From positions 119,099 through 183,098 of the forward strand of contig NZ_LT855387.1 in assembly GCF_900184735.1 (NCBI RefSeq): DNA of 64,000 bases, given 5' to 3'. Shown here piece after piece: positions 1 to 56,181 of this stretch; within the stretch, counting starts at the first letter, position 1, and each line of letters opens with the position of its first letter. Made by a program: the position numbers and the translations under genes. The notes under the pieces are model-generated. The model was not told the origin of the DNA, did no database searches, and saw only the letters and a list, made by a program, of their open reading frames with translations. Source of the DNA: Paucisalibacillus globulus. GTDB lineage: Bacteria; Bacillota; Bacilli; Bacillales; Amphibacillaceae.

Positions 1-243
1 AAACCAGCGCAGGCAGAATACGGAGACTCCTCGAAAATAAAGAACAATTTTCTTCGTGCGATGATTACGCTGACGAAGCATTCCTTGTCCTGCGGGAATA
101 GCACGTGTCCGAAGACCCCTAGAGAGGCGAACTTTCCTCGAGGAGGCTGAGGCCGGGCCCGCGGAAAGCGGAGTGTTCTGCCGGAGCGGTATTATACCAC
201 TATCATCTATAATAAAAATCACAGTCGTTACCGCGCAGTTTCT
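1..243 (-). repeat. GC-rich palindromic repeat element, copy 1 (one arm, cut by window edge)
   Basis: A GC-rich block in an AT-rich genome. It is the reverse complement of the left arm of the elements at 24304-24995 and 47671-48144 and ends at about 243 in the terminal inverted repeat (GTTACCGCGCAGTTTCT). The inner stem GGCAGAATAC near 13-22 can pair with GTGTTCTGCC near 173-182 through one G.U pair. The remaining arm should lie to the left of the window. It has no credible coding content. Boundaries are good to a few bases and no target-site duplication can be tested here. Confidence 0.8.
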
Positions 244-24303: not shown

Positions 24304-24995
24304 AGAAACTGCGCGGTATTTTAACCATAGTTAATGAGGATAGTGGAACGATACCGCTCCGGCAGAATACTCCGCTTTCCGCGGGCCCGGCCTCAGCCTC
24401 CTCGAGGAAAGTTCACCTCTCTAGGGGTCTTCGGACACGTGCTATTCCCGCAGGACAAGGAATGCTTCGTCAGCGTAATCATCGCACGAAGAAAATTGTT
24501 CTTTATTTTCGAGGAGTCTCCGTATTCTGCCTGCGCTGGTTTTATTTTCGAGGAGTCTCCGTATTCTGCCTGCGCTGGTTTAGTTTTCTAATTATTATTA
24601 GTTATTGCAACATGTTTTGGATTTATTTGGTTCTATTGCTCTTAATCACTCATCACTAGCGTAGGAAATGCACGGAGACTCCTTGAAAAAGAAAATCACT
24701 TTTTCTGCGTGCGATGTATCGCTTTCGTAGCGTTCCTTGTCCTGCGGGAGGATAGGCATCGGTGAGACCCCGCAAGAGCAAAATAGGGGTTCAAAGACTA
24801 AGAACGCCTCATCCTGAGGCAACGCCTTTGTGACCAACATCCTGTTGGCCCGAGGCTCACCAGCCGCCCGCGGCAAGGTAGACACTGTGAGGTACTTTCG
24901 AACTGATGTCGCCCCTGTGCTGACAGTAAAAGCGGAGTGTATTTCCGTAGCGGGTATGATGAGCTACCATAATGCTTAGTTGCCGCACAGTTTCT
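24304..24995 (+). repeat. GC-rich palindromic repeat element, copy 2 (complete)
   Basis: About 692 bp bounded by inverted ends (AGAAACTGCGCGGTA at left; AGTTGCCGCACAGTTTCT at right, two mismatches to the end of copy 3). Left arm 24304-24579 and right arm 24656-24995 are related as imperfect reverse complements around an AT-rich centre. The left arm has a perfect GGCAGAATAC/GTATTCTGCC closing stem; the right arm has GGAAATGCAC/GTGTATTTCC with one G.U. It carries a 39-bp exact tandem duplication and an extra roughly 150-bp segment in the right arm. Short open frames in it look spurious. Confidence 0.88.
24502..24579. repeat. 39-bp tandem duplication inside repeat copy 2
   Basis: Two exact 39-base units (24502-24540 and 24541-24579), each starting TTTATTTTCGAGGAG and ending GCGCTGGT. 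Copy 3 has a single unit at the matching place, so this is a local duplication in copy 2. Confidence 0.92.
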
Positions 24996-47670: not shown

Positions 47671-48144
47671 AGAAACTGCGCGGTAACTTAACTTTATTAA
47701 AAATGGTGAAGCCAAATGCTACCGCTCCGGCAGAATACTTCGCTTTCCACGGGCACGGCCTCAGCCTCCTCGAGGAAAAACCGCCTCTGCGGGGTCTTCG
47801 GACACGTGCTATTCCCGTAGGACAAGGAAAGCTACGGCAGCGTAATCATCGCACGAAGAAAATTGTTCTCTATTTTCGAGGAGTCTCCGTATTCTGCCTG
47901 CGCTCGTTTGGGTCTTCTAACTTTAAGTTAGCAAGTAATTATTGTGTTGGTTTTAATTGCCTATTTTTTTCCACTCAATACTAGCGAAGGAAATACACGG
48001 AGACTCCTGCGGGAGGATAGGCTTCGGTGAGACCCCGCAGTGCGATAGCACGAGGAGGCTCACCAGCCGCTCAGCGAGTGCGGAGTGTATTTCCGTAGCG
48101 GGTATGTTGCGCTATACAAAGTATTTAGTTACCGCGCAGTTTCT
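47671..48144 (+). repeat. GC-rich palindromic repeat element, copy 3 (complete)
   Basis: A 474-bp element with perfect 18-bp terminal inverted repeats (AGAAACTGCGCGGTAACT and its complement). Left arm 47671-47908 matches copies 1 and 2. Right arm 47981-48144 is closed by the perfect stem GGAAATACAC (47989-47998) / GTGTATTTCC (48085-48094) and contains a second hairpin CTGCGGG/CCCGCAG. An AT-rich spacer separates the arms. No coding frame with a ribosome-binding site is present. It lies between the small basic gene and nrdJ. No target duplication is evident. Confidence 0.9.
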
Positions 48145-55592: not shown

Positions 55593-55648
55593 AATAGGGA
55601 CAGTATTGAAATGAGATTTCGAACACCTCATTAACAATACCGCCCCTG
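55593..55648 (-). terminator. Expression-platform terminator of the glycine riboswitch
   Basis: A two-part hairpin pairing TATTG/CAATA and ATGAG/CTCAT with an outer GACAG/CTGTC, followed on the minus strand by CCCTATTTTTA. It overlaps the end of the second aptamer (the conserved GGACAG), so ligand binding could block it and let gcvT be read. Confidence 0.65.
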
Positions 55649-55836
55649 TCCTGTAACCAGAAAGTTTAGCATTTTTCAGAAAAGCAGAAAATGCGTGCTT
55701 CGTGGGTGGTTTACTTATGTAAACTCTCTCCAGAGGTGCGTCCTACAAGAGTTCTTTTGCCTGAGAGATTCACAAATCAGCTTGCTCCTTCGGCGTTACT
55801 TATCCACTCTTAGATAAGTAATCTCTCCCCTTGTAA
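55636..55836 (-). ncRNA. Tandem glycine riboswitch
   Basis: On the minus strand both aptamers of the gcvT element are readable. Aptamer 1: GGGGAGAG, CGCCGAAGGAGCAAG, CTCTCAGGCAAAAGAAC, GGACGC. Aptamer 2: CTCTGGAGAGAG, AAACCACC, AAACTTTCTGG, CAGGACAG. Order and spacing match the B. subtilis gcvT riboswitch, an on-switch. It lies 87 bases upstream of the gcvT start. The remaining sequence to 56181 is AT-rich promoter region for gcvT and the divergent yqhH. Confidence 0.95.
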
Positions 55837-56181
55837 TCATCCGCTTTATGAAATTCTGTTTTTATGGTTATACTATGTATCAAAACTCTCTTACTATAAA
55901 GATTTATAAGTATTATACCATATAACTATTAAAATGTATCCTTTATATTCAACCTATTTAAAGCATTTCCCCTCAAAAATCTATTTGAAATCGCTTTAAA
56001 AAACTACAACAATAACTATTCAACAGTAAAACCGAACAAATTAACATGTAGTAGGTTGAATTATACGGATACTAATTTGAAGAGTCTTCCTTTTTCTTGG
56101 AGACGTAATACGCTTGTAACAAACACTGCTTAGTACTTTATAAAACAATAATTATGAAACTATGGATAAAGGAAGTATGAG

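Follow-up and report, generated by a model that had tools for sequence, protein, structure and literature searches.

The GC-rich palindromic element that occurs three times in a 64-kb stretch of the Paucisalibacillus globulus genome (hereafter the window, meaning the whole of the DNA analysed) is, I consider it reasonably probable, a non-autonomous intergenic mosaic palindromic repeat of the Bacillales, BIME- or MITE-like, that is rarely inserted and is reshuffled by ectopic recombination or gene conversion. It works like the BIME and MITE families, and membership in either is not established. Such repeats are present in many Bacillaceae genomes, and no description of them emerged from the open PubMed Central listings searched. 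Covariation, near-invariant loops and a nested RNA bring two questions within reach of a test: to what the orphan RNA Bacillaceae-1 belongs, and whether one bacterial palindromic repeat can spread by overwriting another.

Sequence inspection and end matching confirm all three copies at the coordinates listed below, where a sequence-only reading of the window had placed them, and the copies share inverted ends, two GC-rich hairpins and an AT-rich centre. Ends like AGAAACTGYGCGG lie at 47671 (+), 48144 (-), 24304 (+), 24995 (-) and 243 (-). Copy 3 has the perfect 18-bp inverted ends ascribed to it (18/18 bases); those of copy 2 are imperfect, 18 of their first 30 positions being matched. The window edge cuts copy 1, a 623-bp element complete at locus L037, and leaves its right part inside. 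The reading's GC-rich arms in an AT-rich genome are equally real (hairpin GC 0.61 and centre GC 0.29, versus 0.357 for the window), as is the lack of a transposase or credible frame inside, the two ORFs of copy 3 (93 and 85 aa) matching no Pfam or NCBIfam family at E 1. The arms had been taken for imperfect reverse complements around an AT-rich centre; the centre is as described, but the arms are not merely inverted copies, each being a hairpin of about 123 nt, the basic unit of the element, and both belonging to one structural family. Compared with dinucleotide shuffles, copy 3 folds far better, as DNA (21 bases of flank included at either end) at a z of -8.2 and as RNA at -7.7 and -7.0 for the two strands. 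The features are as follows.

47671-48144, no strand: copy 3, two-hairpin element of 474 bp (sequence and end matching)
47671-47688, plus strand: left inverted end of copy 3, 18 bp, perfect partner of 48127-48144 (inverted-repeat search)
48127-48144, minus strand: right inverted end of copy 3, 18 bp (inverted-repeat search)
47717-47841, minus strand, which is its sense strand: hairpin A of copy 3, with outer stem A and apical module alpha (model match R1, 80.9 bits; inverted pair I4)
About 47889-47907: outer-stem partner of copy 3 hairpin A, beyond the gamma insert
47821-47880, minus strand: copy 3 gamma insert of about 60 nt in hairpin A, 5' side of internal loop 1, with limits set by inspection
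47908-47983, no strand: AT-rich centre of copy 3, GC 0.29
47984-48106, plus strand, which is its sense strand: hairpin B of copy 3, with outer stem B and apical module beta (model match, 114.2 bits)
24304-24995, no strand: copy 2, a 692-bp element between spo0A and spoIVB
24349-24474, minus strand: hairpin A of copy 2 (sequence and model match), with a gamma insert and an adjoining tandem duplication by inspection
24725-24897, plus strand: hairpin B of copy 2, enlarged by inserts (model match, 40.1 bits)
24782-24848, plus strand: Rfam RF01690 Bacillaceae-1 RNA at the apex of copy 2 hairpin B, on the hairpin sense strand (65.4 bits, gathering score 35)
24872-24935, plus strand: delta insert of copy 2, on the 3' side of internal loop 1
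1-243, no strand: right part of copy 1, with a hairpin unit at 69-194 (plus) and an end at 228-243

The named genes nearest to copy 3 are mntR and the B12-dependent ribonucleotide reductase gene. In four relatives (G001, G005, G009 and G003; loci L125, L126, L127 and L128) nrdJ is broken, with query breaks at 603/607 or 1123/1124, by DNA that I take to be group I introns. Elsewhere in the window, an Rfam search finds tandem glycine riboswitch aptamers at 55638-55840 on the minus strand.

Fold, polarity and inserts of the hairpin unit

The hairpin structure is conserved by covariation, and strongly so. Its sense strand is the one that reads GGAGACTCC...GGAAAGCG. Alignment A1 sets in one polarity 48 of the 52 distinct units that were chosen from 112; its stems vary with compensation, and hardly any variation is seen in the internal loops GAGACTCC/GGAAAGCG and AGACCCCGCAG/CGAGGAGGCT. 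Pairing on the predicted structure reaches 97.2% of 1631 cells, a figure flattered by the picking of units by their loop motifs and the derivation of the structure from the alignment itself, which is less true of the two-sided changes found in 23 of the 34 pairs. The covariation score is 0.400, versus 0.130 when shuffled and 0.036-0.117 when slid. No Rfam family matches the hairpin itself at the gathering threshold, and below that threshold copy 3 gives just mir-249 (E 2.9) and tsr24 (E 0.83), neither credible. The sequence-only reading had held that arms belonging to a known RNA or coding family would count against it; none was found in Rfam, Pfam or NCBIfam, the Bacillaceae-1 RNA being nested in a hairpin of copy 2.

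The bias of mismatches towards G-U over A-C on the sense strand suggests that one strand folds, as RNA or as single-stranded DNA. Among pairs predicted on both strands, G-U outnumbers A-C by 21 to 4 in sense polarity (13 columns versus 3). The 122 units give 75 versus 31 (columns 18 versus 5, p 0.011), where the pair set comes from the forward fold, which favours G-U, and the cells are not independent events. The 71 units from other genomes contribute 54 versus 13; the own genome by itself shows no strand bias (21 versus 18 in 51 units). As RNA, the sense strand is the more stable in 79% of 48 beta units, the first test of strand stability having set 3 alpha units against these 48.

Recurrent inserts sit mostly in loops. 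Among 141 units with readable anchors, internal loop 1 carries an insert of at least 50 nt on its 5' side in 39 (2 unreadable) and, on the 3' side, one of about 60 nt in 14 (22 unreadable); four units have 70-90 nt between the apical anchors, and stem 2 is lengthened on its 5' strand in three units and on its 3' strand in one (16 unreadable). A permissive search pattern for the gamma insert hit by chance throughout the window and was discarded. The apical insert of copy 2 is the Rfam RF01690 Bacillaceae-1 RNA, whose sole match above the gathering score within the window is the one at 24782-24848. This RNA matches 44 of 61 genomes, the own genome included, with up to 67 matches in one genome. 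By eye, over 28 loci, it is flanked by hairpin arms at L088, L092, L094, L095, L101, L104 and L110, at all seven on the hairpin sense strand as in copy 2; at other loci it stands alone or in arrays, and some copies presumably adjoin rRNA or tRNA genes. PMC2864571 classes Bacillaceae-1 among the certain RNAs and considers a cis-regulatory role improbable.

In another explanation, which I regard as rather doubtful, the hairpin could be an undescribed structured nucleic acid of the Bacillales acting as a single strand, RNA or DNA, of defined polarity, whose two near-invariant internal loops would bind a putative partner and whose apical loop would dock small structured elements such as Bacillaceae-1, and which would spread by replacing resident copies (biased gene conversion), not by classical transposition.

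Inverted ends, copy number and distribution

The whole-genome search that the sequence-only reading had proposed reveals a dispersed family. In the own genome (G000; 3.92 Mb in 23 contigs) the 16-base end has 141 matches (64 + 77) at up to two mismatches and a reversed-pattern control has 0, about 100 end places being among the matches listed. From fetched loci, 46 paired elements were collected and 44 kept, two nested artefacts being dropped; they span 135 to 623 bp, save one of 2028 bp (L068). The logo of 90 ends is TTGATAGAAACTGYGCGGTAACTA, with T at position -1 in 0.90 and A at position 0 in 0.98 of them.

In a minority of copies the likeness continues outward beyond the 18-bp ends for another 60 bp or so, and the motifs GGCTGTTTT, TTGTTG and AATCTAACA are concentrated, again in a minority, at about -60 to -20 outside the ends. 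When 97 own ends were compared with the shells of a distant relative, G396, at a cut-off score of at least 28, the left shell was matched by 15/97 (controls 0/97, shuffled 1, reverse complement 1) and the right shell by 11/97, with a weaker control (controls 0, shuffled 5, reverse complement 2). Because the likeness extends outward past them, the 18-bp ends are probably not the original limits of the whole family.

Target duplications, for which the sequence-only reading had advised looking, did not emerge: no fixed-length direct repeat stands out at 46 elements (best z 2.8 over 117 combinations of offset and length), in a test that a TA duplication hidden within the end logo would escape. Insertion into terminators, as judged from inverted repeats in the flanks, was rejected, since inverted likeness of the flanks within copies shows no excess in 44 elements. 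One 227-bp pair of the same ends (L083:510-737, in G000:C16) encloses a proline-rich, coding-looking tandem repeat without hairpins. Single hairpins of other genomes (L053, L054, L059 and L066) sit, by eye, in another shell with ends like GAGGCTGGGACA...TGTCCCAGCCTC.

The sequence-only reading had placed similar GC-rich cores between genes of many Bacillaceae; copy 3 as a DNA query matches 49 of 61 genomes, the own genome included, largely through its hairpins. The end pattern, at up to one mismatch, occurs in 7 of 100 genomes of the family (a sample without G001 and G007), the own genome alone having 83 hits. Just two named species, Paucisalibacillus globulus DSM 18846 and Paucisalibacillus sp. 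EB02, show the exact 20-base end, with 18 stretches in a contig collection that may omit near records of the own genome. The hairpin model, with at most 11 candidates scored per genome under strict filters, finds 3 of 299 genomes drawn over the phylum, the own genome included. Carriage by phages or plasmids was rejected, as 0 of 50,697 phage records match and 2 of 72,556 plasmid records match partially (26% and 15% of the query). Seven IMG/VR stretches (L306-L312) hold one exact 16-mer of the hairpin core. I found no description of the element in open PubMed Central text, as covered by the leading results of larger sets and few subscription papers. An 11-base string is all that one set of PubMed Central papers shares, the papers being unrelated by title, and a term search of PMC10969869 does not return the word 'Bacillus'.

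Site occupancy and exchange between copies

At the copy 2 site, between spo0A and spoIVB, inspection by eye of eight congeners found six without the element (G001, G002, G004, G005, G006 and G009), a truncated element with the same end in G007 and a two-hairpin element without these ends in G003. At the copy 3 site, also read by eye, one end only is left in G007, and no hairpin is seen in the stretch read in G001, G002, G003, G004 and G006. A joined-flank test of 22 pairs gave a match across the join for L008 alone. The site of L008 is empty in G007, where one match covers all 220 bases of the joined flanks (the junction bases have diverged and the exact target is unreadable), and in G001, where the match is in two adjoining pieces with some flank missing. 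Empty sites in relatives, which the earlier reading had asked for, are therefore present at L008, and six congeners show no element at the copy 2 site. At the L072 site, G007 and G001 lack the element together with about 75 bp, leaving adjoining flank pieces. The joined flanks of L082 lie about 400 bases apart in the relative, meaning that the element is present, and both flanks of L005, L017 and L073 are 115-290 bases apart in G007; the other pairs followed match on one flank or none. The copies are thus not always at the same orthologous sites, the pattern that the sequence-only reading had named as telling against mobility: at least 7 of the 44 are at sites common with a sister species (L011, L014, L031, L036 and L082 with G007; L033 and L077 with G001), and other sites lack the element in relatives. 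The L033 site also holds an end-bearing hairpin element in the genome of another genus (L143).

The hairpins have two types of outer stem (A and B) and two types of apex (alpha and beta). Linkage among the 44 elements is A-alpha/B-beta in 33 and A-beta/B-alpha in five, the recombinants L032, L036, L072, L077 and L082; the other six are incomplete. At two shared sites the own copy is recombinant where the relative's is ordinary: at L036, G007 has A-alpha/B-beta, and at L077, G001 has the ordinary type with its stems in the other order. The same probably applies to a third, L082, on partial evidence, the A-beta hairpin of the own genome being A-alpha in G007, where the partner hairpin is unclassified. 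Four of these five recombinants are closely related (97.0% for L036/L082, 94.9% for L032/L082 and 94.4% for L077/L036), and L072 is not among the best 12 pairs. In genus g23, one site is common to three species, whose copies agree in their ends and differ in their interiors, one interior resembling the inversion of another. Because shared sites carry swapped arrangements of stem and module, I infer exchanges that fit ectopic recombination or gene conversion; the loci are few, and repeated insertion at a favoured site would look alike.

As a mosaic repeat, the reading preferred here, the element might operate as follows. In the own genome, of the Paucisalibacillus group, two units form a divergent inverted pair in a shell with 18-19-bp inverted ends; the element has no known coding function and does not move by itself. 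New sites would be filled rarely, by a separate mobiliser; the hairpins may cause breakage or template switching, and copies would exchange apical modules by ectopic recombination or gene conversion. The loops would tolerate small structured inserts, Bacillaceae-1 RNA included. In favour of this reading are the copy number and anatomy, the covariation, the divergent pairing at all 62 two-hairpin sites, the preference of inserts for loops, the lack of the element at some sites in relatives and the linkage of stems and apices. Speaking against it are the missing strand bias in the own genome (21 versus 18), the lack of a clear strand preference among single hairpins at tandem sites, the weaker control of the right shell, the 3 of 299 genomes matched over the phylum and the occurrence of the exact 20-base end in just two named species; nor did the DDE_3 and Y1 searches yield a mobiliser. 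Enterobacterial BIME/REP elements are likewise intergenic palindromes of mosaic composition, a likeness of architecture alone, whereas the present element has units of about 123 nt, two conserved internal loops and swappable apical modules, and a RAYT link was not found. Gene conversion has reportedly been proposed for REPs, to go by the title of a 1988 review.

Mobilisers, gene context and known systems

A classical MITE would be the deletion derivative of an IS, moved in trans through the cut-and-paste activity of a DDE transposase that recognises the AGAAACTGYGCGGTAA ends, or outer GGCTGTTTTC-like ends (which I take to resemble ISL3 ends), and that has since been lost or is absent from the assembly. 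This origin is unlikely, although the strong end logo, with T (0.90) and A (0.98) at its boundary, the symmetric ends, the sizes of 135-623 bp, the intergenic positions and the empty site at L008 all agree with it. A fixed-length target duplication was not found, and the likeness passes the ends. The TA at the element boundary had raised the idea of IS630, which was rejected, as DDE_3 (IS630-type) transposases, the one DDE family covered, are absent from G000 and have any match in just 4 of 61 genomes. The sole long end pair among the 44, the 2028-bp L068 (in G000:C4, directly right of the window), was rejected as an autonomous partner in the own genome: a transposase gene, presumably of IS110 type, is inserted at L068:1215-2447 and splits hairpin B. 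What stands of the MITE-like label given by the sequence-only reading is a dispersed, non-coding, non-autonomous element with inverted ends and empty sites; a fixed target duplication, and a transposase with matching ends among the DDE_3 and Y1 families searched, did not turn up.

Host-selected RNA elements in 3' untranslated regions, acting as terminator, stabiliser or RNase site and folded on the sense strand, would account for the covariation and near-invariant internal loops, the G-U excess of 21 to 4, the greater stability of the sense strand as RNA in 79% of the 48 beta units and the Bacillaceae-1 RNA on the same strand. Divergent gene gaps are also few. The 106 sites analysed (62 with two hairpins and 44 with one; sites were kept if ORFs lay within 700 bases on both sides) comprise 74 tandem, 24 convergent and 8 divergent gaps, against 200, 48 and 38 among 286 background ORF pairs of the same loci, sites included. 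However, single hairpins at tandem sites lie 18 with and 13 against transcription, no clear preference, and paired hairpins lie on opposite strands. An own promoter in the AT-rich centre was rejected, as no conserved hexamers were seen there, and members of the genus differ in whether the copy 2 and copy 3 sites are filled. I consider this explanation distinctly unlikely.

A giant REPIN, in which a Y1/RAYT transposase would mobilise two inverted hairpins together as single-stranded DNA, is very improbable: conserved unpaired loops, strand-specific folding and the same divergent pairing at 62 of 62 two-hairpin sites, sense strands outward, would suit it, but Y1_Tnp, found in 52 of 61 genomes, is absent from five with copy 3 matches (G010, G024, G025, G035 and G042), 0 of 20 Y1 loci hand-picked from the listed matches carry a hairpin within about 1.5 kb, so that the RAYT idea was rejected as Y1 does not track the hairpins, and units of about 123 nt are far above the 20-40 bp of REPs given in the abstract of PMC3733652. 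The same paper also lists bacterial MITEs and reports that in E. coli such structures are removed by SbcCD.

The mosaic repeat proposed here shares with the bacterial MITEs bcr1, RUP, NEMIS and ERIC its small size, lack of coding, inverted ends, high copy number and intergenic position, and is unlike them in the swapping of modules at occupied sites and in that neither a fixed target duplication nor, among the DDE_3 and Y1 families, a parent transposase was found. Bhal-1 and Bhal-2 of B. halodurans, Bant-1 and Bcr1, listed in PMC2267715, are also repeated stem-loop families of Bacillus genomes, the comparison being one of name, not sequence. The likeness to Bacillaceae-1 RNA lies in its nesting on the same strand in copy 2 and in several relatives' hairpins, but it is one insert, and the hairpin that carries it is without an Rfam match at the gathering threshold. 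At L105 and L098, by eye, Bacillaceae-1-like units form tandem arrays with differing stems and the same loops.
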